A DNA stretch of 64,000 bases from contig NZ_CP036265.1 in NCBI RefSeq assembly GCF_007743815.1, forward strand, positions 5,401,823 through 5,465,822, given 5' to 3'. Under the pieces are notes generated by a model, which made no database searches, had not been told where the DNA came from, and saw only the letters and a list, made by a program, of their open reading frames with translations. This document shows positions 4,640 through 40,507 of this stretch, piece by piece. A program made the translations under genes and the position numbers. Origin of the DNA: Alienimonas californiensis (GTDB lineage: Bacteria; Planctomycetota; Planctomycetia; Planctomycetales; Planctomycetaceae). Numbering within the stretch: the first letter of the stretch is position 1; every line of letters begins with the position of its first letter.

Positions 4640-4728
4640 CCAGCCCGAACCGCAAGCGTCGGCCGTCGGCAGAGCCGGCGGCGGGAAGCGTCAGGTGACG
4701 CACGGCCGAGGCTTGCGCCTCGGGCTGG
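4640..4728. repeat. Inverted-repeat element, AGCCCGA..CGCAAGC family, copy 1
   Basis: Arms 4640-4666 and 4702-4728 are 27 bp and pair with about three mismatches around a 35-nt spacer. The core resembles the element at 9485-9602. It fills the gap between ubiE/menG (stop at 4739) and ubiX (start at 4638) on the minus strand, so any transcript running between these genes would fold here. Confidence 0.8.
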
Positions 4729-26155: not shown

Positions 26156-27094
26156 TCACGGGACGGCGGGGGCGGCGGCGGGAGCGTTGACCGTGCGTCC
26201 GCTGACGCGGGCCAGCGCGAGGGCCAGCAGCGCTCCGAAGCCGAAGAACATCAGCCCCTGCTCCCAGCGGCCCAGCGGCACCGGCCGGTGGAGGCCGCGG
26301 GCGTCGAAGGTGTTCGCCGTCACGCTGCCCAGCACCACGCCGACGATCGGCATCAGCATCCCGGAGACGACCCCCGCCGCAACGCCCGCCAGCGTCGGAC
26401 CGCCCATCGCCCCGGCCAACGACCACTTCGGCGCCTTTCCGAGCGAGAACCGCACCGCGATCCCGGCGGCGGCCCCGATCAGGCCCAGTTGGAAGGCGTA
26501 GGCGAACATCGCCGGGAACAGTTGTCGGTCGCCGACGGCCCCCCCCCAGCCGGAGACGGCGTCGGAAACGAGGATTTCCAGCGTCACGAGTGCGGCGAGC
26601 ACCCCGGCGGCGGCGCCCAACCCCAGCCCCGCCCCCGCCCCGCGGAGCGTGCGGCGACCGCGGGACGACGCGGCCGCCGCACCGGCGGGCGCACGGCACA
26701 GGCCGCCGGCGGCCCCCAGCAGGCCGGCCGTCAACGCTGCCGCCGCCGCCAACGCCGAGCAGTCCATCCACCGGATCCGGCGGCGGATCGATTCGAGTTC
26801 CAGCTGCCGCTGCTCGTCCGTCGCGTCGCGGGGAGCGATGTAGACGGGCGTCCGCACGTACATTTCGTACTGAATCTGCCGCGCCGACAGCAGGGAGAGC
26901 GACGCCGCGACGAGGGCGGCGACCACGAAGATCGGCAACCGGGCCCAGTCGGGCAGCCCGCGTCGGTCGGCGCCCGCCGGGGGCGGCCCGTTCGCCCCGG
27001 GGGGGCGGGGGGCGAACGCCCCAGGGGCCGTGCCGGCGACGGGCGTGGCCGGGGCGTTCGAATCAGGCGTCACGGCAGTCCGGGGAGAGGTCAC
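26156..27094 (-). CDS. Multi-span membrane protein of unknown function
   Basis: The 312-residue protein begins (GTG) with a Pro/Ala-rich tail of about 50 residues, followed by one span (LPIFVVAALVAASLSLL), a charged loop (DATDEQRQLELESIRRRIRW), and five or six further spans rich in Gly/Ala. It resembles no family I know. It is just upstream of mtnA in the same direction. No enzymatic motif is visible. Confidence 0.6.
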   Translation of the reverse strand: MTSPRTAVTPDSNAPATPVAGTAPGAFAPRPPGANGPPPAGADRRGLPDWARLPIFVVAALVAASLSLLSARQIQYEMYVRTPVYIAPRDATDEQRQLELESIRRRIRWMDCSALAAAAALTAGLLGAAGGLCRAPAGAAAASSRGRRTLRGAGAGLGLGAAAGVLAALVTLEILVSDAVSGWGGAVGDRQLFPAMFAYAFQLGLIGAAAGIAVRFSLGKAPKWSLAGAMGGPTLAGVAAGVVSGMLMPIVGVVLGSVTANTFDARGLHRPVPLGRWEQGLMFFGFGALLALALARVSGRTVNAPAAAPAVP

Positions 27095-32702: not shown

Positions 32703-33506
32703 TCAGGCCGTGACGGCGGCATAGGCCGCGGCGACGATCACCCCGCGGTCGCACCCGTACAGACTTGCGCAGGCGAACGCTCCGACCTCCAACACGAACA
32801 GACTGCCCTCGCTTTCGCACAGATCCAGACACCACAGCGGATCCGGCGCGTAGCCGGTCGCGGCCGCGGCGTTCGCCAGCCGTCGCACCGCCGCCGGCAA
32901 CTCCGGTTCAACGCGCGGTCCGGCCGGGTCGCGGTAGAGGCACCCGGCAACGACCGCTCCCGCGGCGATCACCGCCCGCCACTCTCGCTCCACCCTCCGC
33001 GGCCGACACGCCAGCACCGGCTCGGAGGGCGGCACGTCGTAGAACGCGAGCCGCTCGACGTCGGCCTGCCAGGTCGCGGCCCGCAGCAGCGTCCCGCCGA
33101 ACGGTTTCGACGCGGCGTCCGGTCGAACGAAGACCTCTCCCCCCGCCCCGACCGCATCCAATACAGCCTCCCGACGGTCGATCAGCTCCGCGAGTGCGAG
33201 CCGCACCGGCTCCGCGTTGAGCAGCCACGGCCCCAGCGGTCGGGAGTAAACCTCGAATCGGAGTGCTGGAAAGTTCGCCCACACCCCGGCCGGGGCGCCG
33301 GCCGCAGTCCACGCCGCGGCGGCCTCCACCGAACCGCGGAACACGACCGGTCCGCCCCCGGCAACGCGGTTCAGCGCTTCGGGATCGGTCGAGTCACACT
33401 CCGTCAGCGTGCCGCCCGCGGCCGCGACGGCGGCGGGTAACGGGTCGTCGGGCGGGAGCACGTCCGGATCGACCATCCACCGCACCAGGCGACCGTGTTC
33501 CTGCAT
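32703..33506 (-). CDS. ATP-grasp domain protein (DUF4343/R2K-like)
   Basis: The ATG at 33506 shares one base with the hisF stop (TGATG), so translation is probably coupled; a GTG one codon earlier is possible. The 267-residue protein lacks a signal peptide. Its middle and C-terminal parts carry an ATP-grasp-like layout: EVFVRPDAASKPFGG (nucleotide contact), REWRAVIAAGAVVAGCLYR, and LDLCESEGSLFVLEVGAF ending in the metal-binding acidic segment. Such proteins ligate amines to carboxylates, but substrates of this clade are unknown. Coupling to hisF may reflect convenience rather than histidine metabolism. Confidence 0.7.
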   Translation of the reverse strand: MQEHGRLVRWMVDPDVLPPDDPLPAAVAAAGGTLTECDSTDPEALNRVAGGGPVVFRGSVEAAAAWTAAGAPAGVWANFPALRFEVYSRPLGPWLLNAEPVRLALAELIDRREAVLDAVGAGGEVFVRPDAASKPFGGTLLRAATWQADVERLAFYDVPPSEPVLACRPRRVEREWRAVIAAGAVVAGCLYRDPAGPRVEPELPAAVRRLANAAAATGYAPDPLWCLDLCESEGSLFVLEVGAFACASLYGCDRGVIVAAAYAAVTA

Positions 33507-34429
33507 CACGCCGCCTCAACCAACCGCACGTTGACCCCCCGCTTCGCCAGCGCCCGTTTGCAGTCGGGGACGGGGTGGGTGCCGTCGTGGAAGATGCTGG
33601 CGGCGAGGACGGCGTCGGCGTGGCCGTCGGTGAGGGCGTCGTACAGGTCGTCCGGGGAGCCGGCGCCGCCGCTGGCGACGACGGGGATGCCCACCGCCCG
33701 GCTGACCGCCTCGGTGATCTCCAGGTCGTAGCCGGTTTGGGTGCCGTCGGCGTCCATGCTGGTCAGCACGATCTCGCCGGCGCCGCGGTCGGCCATCTCG
33801 ATCGCCCAGGCGACCGCGTCCAGTCCGGTCGGCAGACGACCGCCGTTGATGTGGACGTCCCAGGCGCAGGTGGGGAGGGGGGAGGAGTGAGGGGGGAGGA
33901 GACAGCTCTCCGCCCACCGCTTCCGGAAGCCCGGCTGCGTCGGAGCGGGGCGTTCGATCGTCCGCAAGCGGTTCGGCCAATCGAACGTTTCCCCCCCTCC
34001 CTCCTCACTCCTCCCCCCTCTCCAAGCAACCCTGCGCGGGTCGATGTTCACCACGATGCACTGGGCCCCGAAGCGTTTGGAGGCTTCGCTGATGAAATCC
34101 CGGTCGCGGACAGCGGCGCTGTTGACGCTCACCTTGTCCGCCCCGGCGTTCAGCAGGGCCCGCACGTCGTCGCAAGTGCGGACGCCCCCGCCGACGGTCA
34201 GCGGCATGTGGACCTCGTCGGCGGTGCGGCGGACCACGTCCAGGATTGTGCCGCGGCCCTCGTGACTGGCGGTGATGTCGAGGAAGACCAGTTCGTCGGC
34301 GCCGTCCTGCTCGTAGCGGCGGGCGACGTCGACCGGGTCGCCGGCGTCGCGCAGGTTGACGAAGTTCACCCCCTTCACCACCCGCCCGCCGTGGACGTCG
34401 AGACAGGGAATTATGCGGGCGGCGGGCAT
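33506..34429 (-). CDS. hisF: Imidazole glycerol phosphate synthase HisF with a palindromic insertion
   Basis: The ATG at 34429 begins [14 protein letters not shown], the usual HisF start, giving 307 residues against the family's ~255. Catalytic D11 and D130 (VVNIDPRR) are at the same numbers as in Thermotoga HisF, but the next landmark, TSMDADGT, has its Asp at 226 instead of 176, so 50 extra residues lie in the loop after strand 5. Residues ~137-185 are encoded by the inverted repeat 33875-34020. The remainder ([40 protein letters not shown]) is well conserved. HisF cyclises PRFAR with ammonia from HisH. The enzyme is probably active since all key residues remain, but this is unproven. Confidence 0.92.
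33875..34020. repeat. 146-bp palindromic element inside the hisF coding sequence
   Basis: Arms 33875-33899 and 33996-34020 (core GGGGGGAGGAGTGAGG) pair over 25 bp with one mismatch. The 96-nt interior has its own structure: CGTTCGAT pairs with ATCGAACG, and there is a GCTTCCGGAAGC palindrome. The element keeps the hisF frame with no stop codon, and its length matches the 50-residue excess of the protein. It resembles in form, not sequence, the intergenic palindromes elsewhere in this window. Confidence 0.88.
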
Positions 34430-34509
34430 GAGCGGGGCGAACGAACGGGAACGACGGTCGGCGGCAGAATAGCGACGGGCGTGCCGAGTGCGGATTCGCC
34501 CGGACGGGC

Positions 34510-35970
34510 TCAGGTCTTGAAGGCGACGAAGCCGGCGGCGAGCAGCAGGCCGAGGGAGGCCGCCCAGGCCCACAGCGTGGAGCCGCGGCCGCCGACCGGT
34601 TCGGGCTCCTGTTGCAGGGTCCTCCGCGTGCTCTGGGCCGCCTGCCGCACGCGTTCCTCCAGATCCTCCTTCTGCACCCGGTTGAGGATCGAATCCAGCT
34701 CGCCCCGCTGGGAGGGAAAGGCGACGAGGGCCTGCGCCGCGGCGGCCCGAACCGTCAGGTCGTCGCTCTCCAACGCCTCAAGAAGCGCGTCGTAGTTCGC
34801 GGAGCCGTCCTCGCCCAGTTGGCCCAGGGTGGCGGCGGCGTCGACGCGCTGGAGCGGGTCGCCGCTTTCCAGGCGTTCGATCCAGCGGGCCTCGGCCCGG
34901 TCCAGGGCGGCGCTGTCGGTCTGCCAGCGGGCCGCGGCCGGGAGCAGCAGACCGCAGAGGGCCAACGCCCCCGCGGCGGTCCACTTGACCCAGGGCGTCG
35001 GCGCCGCGACCCGGCGGGGCGGGGGCGGAATCGTCAGGTCGTCGTCGGAGATCTGGCGTTCCCGGTCGCGGAGCGAGGGGACGTCCATCGTCATCGTCGG
35101 CGTCCGCTGCCGCAGGGCGACGCGTTCGTCCAGCGCGTTCAGCCGTTCGCCCACCGCCGTCGCGGTCGCCGGGCGATCCTCGATGCGTTTCTCCATCAGG
35201 TCCGCCACCAGCGCGTCTAGCCCGGGAGGACAGTGCGGCTCCCGGGAGATGACCCGCGGGGCCGGCCGTTTCAGGTGCATCTGAAGAGTTTCGGCGGGCG
35301 TTTCCCCGGCGAAGGGCGGCACGCCGGTCAGCAGTTCGAATAGCACCACGCCCAGGGCGTACAGGTCCGTCTGCGGACAGGCCGGGGGACGGCCGCGAAT
35401 CTGCTCCGGCGCCATGTAGCGGAAGGTGCCCATCGTGCGGCCCTCCGCGGTGAGTTTGTTTCCCTCCCGCACCGCGGCGAGGCCGAAGTCCGCCAGCTTC
35501 AGCGTGCCGTCCTCGGCCAGCAGGAAGTTGCCCGGCTTGAGGTCCCGGTGAATCACGCCGCGATCATGGGCGAACGCCAGCGCGGCGCAGATCTGCTTGG
35601 CGTACTGCACGACCGTCTCCGGCCCGAGCCGGCCGTCGCGTTCCAGCAGATCCTGCAGGGTGCCCCCGGTCAGGTACTCCATCGCATAGAAGCGTCGGTT
35701 GGGCGACTTGCCCGGGCCTTTGTCCCCGTCGGTCATCCCGCCGAACGTGTGGACGATGTGCGGGTGCCGCATGTCCCGCAGCAGGCCGACTTCCCGCTCG
35801 AACCGGGCGAGTACAGTCTCGTCGGTGACGTCCGAGGGGAGCAGTTTGACCGCCACGATGCGGTCGTTTTTGACGAAGCGGGCCTTCCAGACCTCGCCCA
35901 TCCCCCCCTGCCCGATCCGTTCGAGCAACTCGAACGGCCAGATCCAGCGATTTTCGACGGTCTCGGGCAC
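34510..35970 (-). CDS. Membrane-bound Ser/Thr protein kinase with HEAT-like repeats
   Basis: The 486-residue protein (GTG start) has a complete Hanks-type kinase domain: glycine loop [11 protein letters not shown] at 20-30, Lys42, HRDLKPGN with catalytic D143, DFG at 161-163, and MAPEQ at 186-190. After a linker, one membrane span lies near 329-347, then HEAT-like helical repeats ([27 protein letters not shown]) at about 370-425, and a second span at the C-terminus ([19 protein letters not shown]). The two spans place the repeats outside or anchor the chain twice. Such kinases are abundant in planctomycetes; the substrate is unknown. It precedes, on the opposite strand, the hybrid histidine kinase. 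Confidence 0.93.
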
Positions 35971-36383: not shown

Positions 36384-37352
36384 ATGAACTGGCTCTTCGG
36401 AACGGACGGGTTCCCCCCGCGCTGGCGTTGCGGGACCGGATGGGAGGCGGAGCCCTGGGTGGGGTGGCTGCACGTCGTGGGCGACTCGCTGATCGCCGCG
36501 GCCTACACCTCCATTCCGCTGTTGCTGATTTATCTGGGCAGCAAGCGGAACGACGTGCCGTTCCACTGGCTCGGCGGGCTGTTCGCGGCGTTCATCCTCG
36601 CCTGCGGGGCCACGCACGCGCTGGACGCGTTCATCTTCTGGGAGCCGCTGTACCGGCTGTCCGGACTGATGAAGGCCCTCACGGCGGCGGTCTCCTGGGC
36701 GACCGTGGCGGCGTTGCTGCTGGCGCTCCCGGCGATCCTGCACCTGCCGGGCCGGGCGAAGCTGGCGGACTCGCTGGAGGCGGAGATCGCGGAGCGGCGC
36801 CGGGCCGAGGCCGCCGAACGCACCGCCCGCGAGGCCGCCGAGGCGGCCAACGTCGCCAAGACGCAGTTTCTCGCCGCCATGAGCCATGAACTCCGCACCC
36901 CGCTGACCGCGGTGCTGGGCTACGCGGACCTGCTCGCCCGGGCGCTGGAGAATCCGGACCGCCGCGACATGGCCCGGCAGATTCGCGCCAACGGCAATCA
37001 TCTGCTCACCCTGCTGAACGATTTGCTGGACCTCTCCAAGGTGGAGGCGGGCAAGCTGGAGATCGACCGGCGCCCCGTCGAACTGGTGCCGCTGCTCGAG
37101 GAGGTGCGCTCGCTGATGAACGTGCAGGCGCTCGACCGCGGGTTGAAGCTGGAGGTCCGGTACCTCGGCCCGGTCCCGCGGTTCGTCATGACGGACGCGG
37201 TCCGTCTGCGGCAATGCCTGCTGAATCTGCTCTCCAACGCGATCAAGTTCACCGATCGCGGCCGCGTACGGATGGAGGTTCGCTTCCTGCCCGACGCCCC
37301 GGCCGACCTGACCGCGGACGCCCGAGTCCCGGCCGCCGCGGGTGCGATTTGA
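36384..37352 (+). CDS. Hybrid histidine kinase with ethylene-receptor-like sensor, N-terminal part (frame interrupted)
   Basis: The ATG at 36384 begins a 322-residue product. Residues 28-120 form three membrane helices like plant ETR1: D34, Y41, P45, I71, C74 and H78 correspond to ETR1 D25, Y32, P36, I62, C65 and H69 with a constant offset of nine, including the CGATH motif that binds Cu(I) and ethylene. A coiled segment ([19 protein letters not shown]) leads to the phospho-acceptor H168 in MSHELRTPL, the dimerisation helices, and the N box LLSNAIKF near 280. The frame then stops at 37350 before the G1 box. The next reading frame, overlapping by 11 bp, completes the domain. Confidence 0.85.
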
Positions 37353-38166
37353 CGTGTCGGACACCGGCGTGGGCATGACCGCGGAGCAACTCGCCGGGCT
37401 GTTCCGGCCGTTCGGGCAGGTGGACGCGGAAGCGACCCGGCGGGCCGGCGGCACCGGGTTGGGGCTGGCGATCACCAAACGGTTGGCGGAGATGCTCGGC
37501 GGCGACGTGCGGGTCGAGAGCGAACCGGGGGCCGGGTCGACCTTCACCCTCACCGTCGCCGCCGGGGAGAACGCTGACGGCGAGTTCGTCGAACCGGTCG
37601 GCCAGGAGACCGGCGAGTTCCCCGTGGGCGGGGCCTCGAACGCCGCGGCAGACGAAGCGGCGGACGAAGTGGCCGGCGGGGCGACGCGGGAGCGGGTTCC
37701 CCACGCACTTCCCGCCGGCGCCGGGCCGGATCGAGCGTTCCGGGAGGCGTCGGCGCCCCTGCCCCGCGCCGGCACGCCGGTGCGGGTGCTGTTGGCGGAG
37801 GACACCCGCGCGCTTCGAAAACTCACGACCCGCCTGCTGACCGCCGCCGCCCACGAGGTGACGGAGACCGAGGACGGGCGAGCGGCGGTGGAGGCCTGGA
37901 CGGCGGATCCGGAGGCGTTCGACGTGATTCTGCTGGACATGCAGATGCCCCGGCTGGACGGCTTCGGAGCCGCCGCCGAGCTGCGGGCCGCGGGCTGCAC
38001 CGCGCCGATCGTCGCCCTGACCGCCGGGGCGATGGCCGACGACCGCGAACGCTGCGCCGCGGTCGGCTGCGACGCCTACCTCGCCAAGCCGTTCGAGGCG
38101 GAGGTCCTGCTCCGCACCGTCGCCGAGTTGGCGGCAGGCGGGACCGCCCGCCAGTCGGCGGACTGA
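37342..38166 (+). CDS. Hybrid histidine kinase, C-terminal part: rest of ATPase domain plus receiver
   Basis: In the +1 frame relative to the preceding part, this 274-residue segment starts [11 protein letters not shown] (G1 box) and continues with FRPFGQVD and GTGLGLAI (G2 box, about residues 37-44), exactly the pieces missing upstream. After a Gly/Glu/Ala-rich linker, a receiver domain begins at [14 protein letters not shown] with phospho-acceptor D199 in [13 protein letters not shown] and the closing [11 protein letters not shown]. It is not a stand-alone kinase. Either a single-base insertion splits one gene, the sequence has an error, or two subunits assemble. A GTG at 37342 could serve as a separate start. 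Confidence 0.82.
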
Positions 38167-38197
38167 CGCGGCGGCGGCTTTCTCCCCCGGTGCCGGG

Positions 38198-39622
38198 TCA
38201 GCCGGCGGCCAACGCTTCGGCTTCGTCCCGCACGGCGGCCAGCGGGGCGGCGACGTCCTCCCACCGCACATCATGCGGCATCACGCTCCGCTTCGAGGCG
38301 ACCGCCGCGGCGACGCCCGCGGCCTCGCCGGTCGCCACGGCGTTGCCGGTCACCCGGTAGCTGGCGTGGGCGAAGAAGTCGCCGCTCAGGCAGCGGCCGG
38401 CGGTCAGCAGGCCGTCCACGTCCGCCGCCACCAGCGCCCGCAGAGGGATGTCGAACGGCTTCGCCTTCACGCCAGCCGAGCCGTAGGCGGATTTGTCCCC
38501 CTGCTCCTTCGTCGTGGCGTGCACGTCCACGCAGAAGCCGGAGCGGCAGACGGCGTCGTCGTGCCGCACGCCCGATTTCACGTCCTTCACGTCGACCTCG
38601 TAACGCCCGCGGATGCGGCGGCCGTCGCGGACGCCGATCTGCTCCGCGGTGGTCACCAGCCGCGTCTCCGCCCAGCCGCCGCCCAGCGACCGCAGGGCGT
38701 TCGCCAGTTGGAACAGCTCCCGCCGGGCGTTGAACGTGGCGGCGGTAACGGCCGCGGCGTCGGTGGGGTCCACGCCGTATTCGTGGTTTAGCATCACCGC
38801 GGCGACCGGCCCGCCGAGGTGCCACAGCGTCGGCTTGGTGTAGCTCGGCGTGATTCCGGCCCGCTTCAGTTCAGCCAGCAGTGCCTCCTTGCGGTCGGAG
38901 CCGAGGGAGGTGTTGAAGGAGGCCAGCGTCTCCGGCTCCCCGCTGAGGACGCCCATCAGCGACATCGGCTGACAGGGACAGCCCTCGCCCAGCGCCTCCG
39001 AGGACCGGGCCTCGCCCAGTTCCCAGCGGCAGCCGGCGAGCGCGGCGAAGTCGCCGTCGCCGGTGGCGTCGATGAAGGCGTCCGCCGTCCAGGCCTGCCG
39101 GCCGCTCTTGGACTCCGTGAAGGCCCCAACGACCTGGCGGCCCTCCTTCGCCACGCCGGCGACCCGGGTGTGCAGTTGGACCTCGATGCCGAGGGCGGCA
39201 CAGAGGTCCTCCAGCGTGAACTTCATCGCCTCCACGTCGTAGAGGTAGTTGCGGAGGGATGACTGCCGGGCGTTGGCCCGCTGGGCGTCGAGCCGCTCCA
39301 GCCGGGCGAGCAGTTCGTTGTTGAAGCCCGGTTTGCCGGCGTCGATGACGTACGACAGCATCCCGCTGGTCCAGACGCCGCCCAGGCAGCCGTGCAGTTC
39401 CAGCAACCGCACGCGGGCCCCGGCTCGGGCCGCAGAGATCGCCGCCGCCACCCCTGCCGGCCCCCCGCCGCAGACCAGCACGTCCGAATACCCCGCGATC
39501 GGCACGCTGCGGGCCGGTTCGTGCAGCGTCCCCGCCGCCGCCGGTTCTCCTTCGGCGGCCCAGCCCAGCCCCCCCGGCAGAGCGAGAGCGGCGGCGGCTC
39601 CGAACAGTTCGCGGCGATGCAT
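38198..39622 (-). CDS. Secreted FAD-dependent oxidoreductase
   Basis: The ATG at 39622 gives 474 residues beginning HRRELFGAAAALALPGG, a possible Tat (twin-arginine) or Sec signal. The FAD-binding dinucleotide fold follows: VLVCGGGPAGVAAAISAARAG near 46, then RVRLLELHGCLGGVWT and the later DAFIDATGDGDFAALAG. The C-terminus has the closing VDGLLTAGRCLSGD segment that contacts FAD. Such proteins are frequent in planctomycetes; the substrate is unknown and may be a sugar or sterol-like compound. Export with a folded cofactor would favour Tat. The upstream gene on the plus strand starts 127 bp away. Confidence 0.88.
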   Translation of the reverse strand: MHRRELFGAAAALALPGGLGWAAEGEPAAAGTLHEPARSVPIAGYSDVLVCGGGPAGVAAAISAARAGARVRLLELHGCLGGVWTSGMLSYVIDAGKPGFNNELLARLERLDAQRANARQSSLRNYLYDVEAMKFTLEDLCAALGIEVQLHTRVAGVAKEGRQVVGAFTESKSGRQAWTADAFIDATGDGDFAALAGCRWELGEARSSEALGEGCPCQPMSLMGVLSGEPETLASFNTSLGSDRKEALLAELKRAGITPSYTKPTLWHLGGPVAAVMLNHEYGVDPTDAAAVTAATFNARRELFQLANALRSLGGGWAETRLVTTAEQIGVRDGRRIRGRYEVDVKDVKSGVRHDDAVCRSGFCVDVHATTKEQGDKSAYGSAGVKAKPFDIPLRALVAADVDGLLTAGRCLSGDFFAHASYRVTGNAVATGEAAGVAAAVASKRSVMPHDVRWEDVAAPLAAVRDEAEALAAG

Positions 39623-39748: not shown

Positions 39749-40507
39749 ATGTTCGCCCTCGCCGCCGCCCTGCTCGTCGCCCCCGCGTTCGCTCCCCAGC
39801 CGCCGGGGGTGGAGGTGATTATCGAACCGCATCCGCCGGGCGGCGGGTTCGGCTTCGGCGGCGGGGGTTTCGGCTTCGGCGGGAGGATGGCCCCCGCGGG
39901 ATCGCCGACGGGCGAAACGTTTCTGCACGGACAGGGCGCCGGCGTGCTGATCTCGCCGGACGGCTCGCAGATCTGGGGATGGTCCGCCGCCGTCGGCGAC
40001 CTGGTGCCGCTGCCCGTGGCCGTGCCGGAGGCGGACCGCGGCAACGTGCAGCCGGTTGTCGGTCAGGGGGTGGTGATGTTCGTGACCGGCGGCTCCGTTT
40101 ACGCCTTCGGCGGGGCCTCCGGCGAATGGGGCTCGCACCCGATCGGCGAGCGGGCGACCGCCACGCCGATCGTCGGTTCCCACGTCGCCGCGATTCGCAC
40201 GGCCGACGGCGTGTACGCCTACAGCGGCTTGACCGGCTCCGGCGGCCTGCACCCGCTGGACGCGGACGAGCGCATCGACGGGCCGGCGGTCGGCGGCAAC
40301 TACGTCCGCGTCGCGTCCGAACGAGCCTTCGGCCTGTTCAGCGCCAAAGCCGGCAAGTGGGGCTCCGTCCGCTACGAGCGGGCCGAACCGCAACCGACCC
40401 CAGAGGTTCCCGGCCAGCCCGGCCCCGGCGAACCGAACGATCCGGAGATCGACCGCAGCTCCAGCGATCCCAACGCCGACGAGCCGTCGGTCGATCCCGA
40501 GGCGTGA
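39749..40507 (+). CDS. Secreted beta-rich protein of unknown function
   Basis: The ATG at 39749 starts a signal peptide (ALAAALLVAPAFA), giving 252 residues. After a Gly/Phe-rich segment (GFGFGGGGFGFGG) come short repeating beta units such as GAGVLISPDGSQIWGWSA, GGSVYAFGGASGEWGSH and DGVYAYSGLTGSGG, like propeller or beta-strand repeats. The tail is Pro/Asp/Glu-rich. I do not recognise a family. Its stop lies 3 bp from the convergent DUF1501 stop. Confidence 0.7.
   Translation: MFALAAALLVAPAFAPQPPGVEVIIEPHPPGGGFGFGGGGFGFGGRMAPAGSPTGETFLHGQGAGVLISPDGSQIWGWSAAVGDLVPLPVAVPEADRGNVQPVVGQGVVMFVTGGSVYAFGGASGEWGSHPIGERATATPIVGSHVAAIRTADGVYAYSGLTGSGGLHPLDADERIDGPAVGGNYVRVASERAFGLFSAKAGKWGSVRYERAEPQPTPEVPGQPGPGEPNDPEIDRSSSDPNADEPSVDPEA

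Follow-up and report, generated by a model that had tools for sequence, protein, structure and literature searches.

The window, as we call the whole stretch of 64,000 nucleotides analysed here, encodes what we judge, with a probability of roughly two in three, to be a bacterial hybrid sensor kinase of the ethylene-receptor type that would hold its ligand through Cu(I), split as sequenced by a +1 change of frame. The sensor domain belongs to the ethylene-receptor family, its site residues are intact and the kinase is split. By analogy with characterized receptors the protein is probably a Cu(I)/ethylene sensor, the kinase output being doubtful as sequenced. The locus and its neighbours consist of the following features:

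34510..35970, minus strand: divergent neighbour, a HEAT-repeat Ser/Thr protein kinase (Pfam Pkinase, E 9.5e-54)
36384..37352, plus strand: ORF 1, 322 aa, with ETR1_N, a linker, HisKA and the N-terminal portion of HATPase_c with its N box (ORFs, Pfam)
36384..36743, plus strand: ETR1_N domain, residues 1-120, predicted three-helix membrane domain (Pfam PF25487, alignments, AlphaFold2 model)
37312..37349, plus strand: interval in which the coding frame moves +1 (three-frame translation of 37200-37420, GC3 switch, tblastn with uninterrupted relatives)
37342..38166, plus strand: ORF 2, 274 aa, with the rest of HATPase_c and a receiver domain (Pfam)
38198..39619, minus strand: FAD-dependent oxidoreductase gene, convergent neighbour (Pfam FAD_oxidored, E 1.1e-95; start unsettled)

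Residues 26-120 match the ETR1_N family (Pfam PF25487) with 116.5 bits against a curated cut-off of 27 (E 6.5e-34). In MAFFT alignments D34, Y41, P45, I71, C74 and H78 align with ETR1 D25, Y32, P36, I62, C65 and H69, I44 falls in the column of I35, and K97 falls in that of K91 after a 3-residue gap. The set DYIPICH (positions 34, 41, 44, 45, 71, 74 and 78), corresponding to the seven ETR1 residues needed for ethylene binding, is complete. PMC11819568 gives seven ETR1 residues as required for ethylene binding and names D25, C65, H69 and K91. The domain is predicted by AlphaFold2 (47 related sequences supplied; mean pLDDT 92) to fold into three transmembrane helices at residues 24-52, 61-83 and 90-119. 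The preliminary description had proposed a three-helix membrane domain with a complete ethylene-receptor copper site and had listed six of these residues; their numbers and ETR1 columns proved correct, and the profile match and the aligned sites, all eight of which are shared with the Azospirillum receptor AzoEtr1, uphold its reading of the site and the family.

If the 42 identities with ETR1 were scattered by chance over the 122 aligned positions, agreement at all seven sites would have a probability of 4e-4; for the 57 identities with AzoEtr1 among 133 positions the corresponding value is 2e-3. The real cause of the agreement is homology. The idea that an unrelated membrane protein came to carry these residues by chance or convergence draws on the short length of the domain alone and is hardly conceivable against the Pfam E-value, the 307 related stretches described below and the AzoEtr1 alignment; a chance match was rejected on these three grounds.

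Three characterized receptors were compared with the window protein. Azospirillum brasilense Sp7 was recovered in the plasmid search, and its ORF (L153) carries D35, C75, H79 and K98 by manual count, in agreement with the numbering reported for AzoEtr1 in PMC11819568. According to the same paper, the first 130 residues of AzoEtr1, expressed in Pichia, bind 14C-ethylene. AzoEtr1 shares with the window protein the three-helix N-terminal domain (57 of 133 positions identical), the alignment of all eight sites, with K98 corresponding to K97, and the histidine kinase output; unlike the window protein, which has an RW-CG N-terminus, a receiver in the other frame of the locus and no adjacent regulator gene, it has a PHG-C-type N-terminus and an adjacent response-regulator gene (PMC11819568). 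SynEtr1 (Slr1212 of Synechocystis), compared by its description in PMC6682694, likewise combines a bacterial ethylene-binding domain and one N-terminal cysteine (C16 in the window protein) with kinase output, but also carries a cyanobacteriochrome. Arabidopsis ETR1 has 42 of 122 positions identical, all seven binding residues and a hybrid kinase with receiver; it differs in having two N-terminal cysteines versus one, and no GAF domain was found in the window protein with Pfam.

Domains of this kind occur widely among bacteria. A search with the window domain gave matches in 38 of the 98 other genomes searched as relatives, and the Pfam family was found in 41 of 391 other genomes of the phylum and in none of 14 control genomes. 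In genome_contigs, a relative is encoded in 307 of 369 pattern-matched stretches, and the titles of the best 80 of these 307 include Planctomycetota, Verrucomicrobiota, Bacteroidota, Chlamydiota, Hydrogenedentota and others. Plasmid records rarely match (18 of 72,556), none of 50,697 phage records matches at E 1e-5, and viral_contigs yielded one relative, with two of the seven residues missing, among 61 pattern matches. That relative, a divergent one on an IMG/VR virus-collection contig (L152 3093-3566), keeps C74 and H78 and has G for D34 and S for P45. On an Acaryochloris plasmid (L155 2974-6264), an ETR1_N frame precedes an IS1-family transposase, beyond which lies a gene for an ATP-binding protein, an order that would fit an interrupted sensor kinase. 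The preliminary description had suggested a search for the same domain in related genomes, which succeeded, and had implied that the domain is rare, which these counts contradict. The window domain is another member of a known bacterial sensor family and not an unusual one.

The conservation of the site was assessed after reducing 158 hits to 132 distinct rows (133 with ETR1); identical cores were removed, near-duplicates may remain, and fragment L020, with a stop in the domain within its frame, was dropped from the counts. DYIPICH is complete in 115 of the 132 aligned rows reaching helix 1, a set that counts both the window copy and ETR1; C74 and H78 occur in all 132. Among the 55 rows from whole-genome homology searches without the motif pattern (the window copy among them), 47 have all seven residues; the share for genome_contigs is 61 of 69, where the fetching pattern favours I71 and C74. 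A special conservation of the site in the window protein was considered and rejected, as members of the family generally carry all seven residues.

A tree was built from 75 of the 133 rows and 119 columns, without an outgroup and with 22 of its 72 inner branches open. In this unrooted tree the window domain groups with domains of planctomycetes, verrucomicrobia and Bacteroidota, away from AzoEtr1 and three cyanobacterial domains, and ETR1, on a long branch, sits between the cyanobacterial rows and the planctomycete/verrucomicrobial/Bacteroidota part. The window row lies on a long end branch with no starred set around it, so that, with no outgroup in the tree, its placement is approximate. We know of no receptor in the planctomycete/verrucomicrobial/Bacteroidota part that has been assayed experimentally for ethylene or copper. 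This position is one of two observations in favour of a different ligand, the other being that the window domain departs at four of the 24 positions identical in ETR1, AzoEtr1 and the three cyanobacterial domains (S33G, F51L, T84I, A108V). Under such a reading the domain would bind copper but respond to the metal, redox state, CO, O2 or an alkene other than ethylene, and binding of ethylene would be limited to the cyanobacterial, proteobacterial and plant branch. We consider it unlikely, since the seven residues needed for ethylene binding persist in 47 of the 55 rows from searches free of the motif pattern, and the window domain shares 20 of the 24 positions; a different ligand might have loosened some of these. 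Sensing of ethylene or another small ligand through copper, as the preliminary description had put it, is a reasonable possibility.

The kinase is encoded in two frames. ORF 1 begins with ATG at 36384 and ends with TGA at 37350-37352, inside the ATPase domain. It contains HisKA at residues 158-223 (Pfam, E 1e-20), with the phospho-acceptor histidine in SHELRTP, and a HATPase_c piece covering profile positions 2-33 of 111 with 20.7 bits, under the cut-off of 26.4. ORF 2, whose length is counted from a mechanical GTG start, continues HATPase_c at profile positions 39-107 (Pfam, E 1.4e-18) and ends with Response_reg (Pfam, E 3.3e-23); DTGVGM, GGTGLGL and the receiver lie in the second frame, downstream of the frame change. 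The first frame holds the N box and the second the G1, F and G2 boxes; within the HATPase domain, the stop together with the +1 frame change separates the N box from the G1 box. The interval of the change is bounded upstream by the last stop of the new frame (37309-37311) and downstream by the stop of the old one. The sequence as given does not place HisKA, a complete HATPase_c and the receiver in one polypeptide, and a full kinase could be made only if the frame shifted. The preliminary description had the signal pass to a kinase with its own receiver; the sequence as it stands does not support this, the receiver being in the second frame beyond the split.

GC3 is 0.92 before the frame change and 0.91 after it. 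Since both the motifs and the GC3 are intact on either side, a sequencing error or a recent mutation is suggested, and the gene appears from its sequence to have been normal until recently or to be broken only in the present sequence. By judgement rather than computation, we assign about half of the weight to a sequencing error as the cause of the +1 change, about two fifths to a recent inactivating mutation and about a tenth to programmed frameshifting. With the gene otherwise under constraint, error or recent mutation is most likely the cause in preference to programmed frameshifting. In the case of an error the protein would be an ordinary hybrid sensor kinase, and in the case of a mutation the products would be the sensor and part of the kinase alone.

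A full-length kinase would also result if translation were programmed to shift by +1 at the TGA or ahead of it. Both frames are coding-like up to the junction, and the stop context, ATT TGA C, only loosely resembles the RF2 frameshift context. We nevertheless regard such recoding as very improbable: frame +1 is already family-like before the stop, which places the shift farther upstream; relatives, L015 among them, are uninterrupted and read in one frame; and the search of one congener, G001, found no orthologue with the same junction. L015, from a planctomycete (genome G076), has the sensor, kinase and receiver in the same order as the window locus (47% identity over the first part and 40% over the second in tblastn) but, unlike it, in a single uninterrupted frame of 611 codons. 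A second copy in the same genome as the window (L003 5360-8578; genome 3823722-3824132) is a hybrid kinase of 1072 aa with an ETR1_N domain 48% identical to that of the window; it differs in that V replaces I71, the first loop is longer by about 13 residues, and the whole protein is longer. In the tree this copy pairs with the sole G001 match to the window domain (support 100/99).

The genes nearby, which the preliminary description had proposed to inspect, are the Ser/Thr kinase and FAD oxidoreductase genes that adjoin the window gene, and no separate response-regulator gene adjoins it among the window ORFs. Near relatives of the domain in genome_contigs, 261 neighbouring ORFs were collected mechanically (137 upstream, and 124 downstream from 72 of 80 loci), and among the 124 downstream ORFs, which were scanned, 28 contain a receiver domain. 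In the congener G001 the orthologue of the Ser/Thr kinase (76% identical; G001:C235:491-1942) forms the left border of a missing segment. An ORF beginning 334 bases beyond the start of this kinase appears to correspond to the window gene at 39749, agreeing with it in 18 of its first 20 residues, but the contig ends after 52 residues and the pairwise E-value is a weak 0.14. In the window the same interval spans about 3.8 kb, occupied by the sensor kinase and the FAD-dependent oxidoreductase, neither of which was found at this place in G001; for the oxidoreductase there is no close match anywhere in G001 (best 27%). The sensor kinase and the oxidoreductase (36384-39619) form a two-gene segment absent at the G001 locus, and the two genes were probably gained in the window genome or lost in G001 together, with some doubt left by the division of G001 into 360 contigs. 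It counts against the preferred reading that the sensor kinase gene, missing from this locus in the congener, is not one that the genus requires.

A further feature of this neighbourhood is an in-frame insertion of about 50 residues (about 33871-34024) in hisF (33506-34453, minus strand), flanked by 29-nt inverted repeats that are 93% complementary. The repeat arm occurs at 10 genomic places with at most 3 mismatches, two of them in the hisF insertion, and a reversed control gave 0; the insertion is a short palindromic element, dispersed in the genome, that here lies within a protein-coding sequence.

The absence of the segment in G001 also bears on whether the locus is a decaying accessory gene in which a true frameshift killed the kinase and left the sensor as a remnant not yet eroded. 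Besides this absence, such decay is favoured by the stop and frame change within HATPase in an assembly that forms a single contig of 5,475,215 bases, of which the window covers 5,401,823-5,465,822, and by the other frame changes examined in the window, which split no recognised domain and so argue mildly against a high error rate. The codon-usage path flagged 14 same-strand frame changes across the window, of which 11, including the present one, are covered by the ORF lists (those near 26159, 53604 and 62597 are left out). Eight of the other ten fall between separate ORFs, as judged by eye from their protein families, and the remaining two, near 4641 and 5615, were not so placed. Against decay, both halves keep recognisable motifs and codon-position bias, and 29 of 30 conserved sensor columns are intact, the window domain departing at a single one of the 30 columns that are at least 90% conserved among 123 relatives. 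Relaxed selection on the sensor was not seen at these columns. The end branch of the window domain in the tree is 0.82 versus a median of 0.22, and given this length some drift of its sequence may have occurred. We hold decay to be a serious possibility that falls somewhat short of an even chance; it concerns the output alone and is compatible with a copper-binding sensor.

Returning to the preferred reading of a Cu(I)-dependent sensor kinase, we infer copper binding, ethylene as the ligand, and signalling from AzoEtr1, SynEtr1 and ETR1. Cu(I) would be held by Cys74 and His78 of helix 2, with Asp34 of helix 1 helping to position it, and the metal would in turn capture ethylene or some other small pi-acceptor ligand. 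With the ligand bound, helix 3 would move via Lys97, and both the autophosphorylation of the HisKA histidine and phosphotransfer to the receiver would change. Because of the frame change the present copy is a poor choice for tests of signalling, for which genes of the L015 type or the second genomic copy are better suited.

A literature search joining planctomycetes with ethylene receptors found nothing on the subject among the matches listed, and PMC4558063, in the portion available, names ETR1 for Arabidopsis only. Putative ethylene receptors are reported from other bacterial phyla in PMC11819568; planctomycete members may therefore already be in print. Searches for a solved structure of a domain of this type were negative: by sequence, the PDB yielded only a synthetic protein (E 0.005), and a fold search gave nothing under E 0.001. 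A 2024 paper states that ETR1 crystals still need improvement (PMC10968091), and stable bacterial versions of the domain could help structure work. More speculatively, and with more doubt than confidence, the planctomycete-verrucomicrobial-Bacteroidota branch, with its one N-terminal RW-CG cysteine, might represent a large group of copper-based gas sensors through which bacteria living on macroalgae, such as the kelp-forest strain that carries the window, would detect host-derived ethylene or a different alkene. Should the domain bind ethylene, sensing of this gas would extend to bacterial groups beyond cyanobacteria and proteobacteria, including groups with cultured strains.
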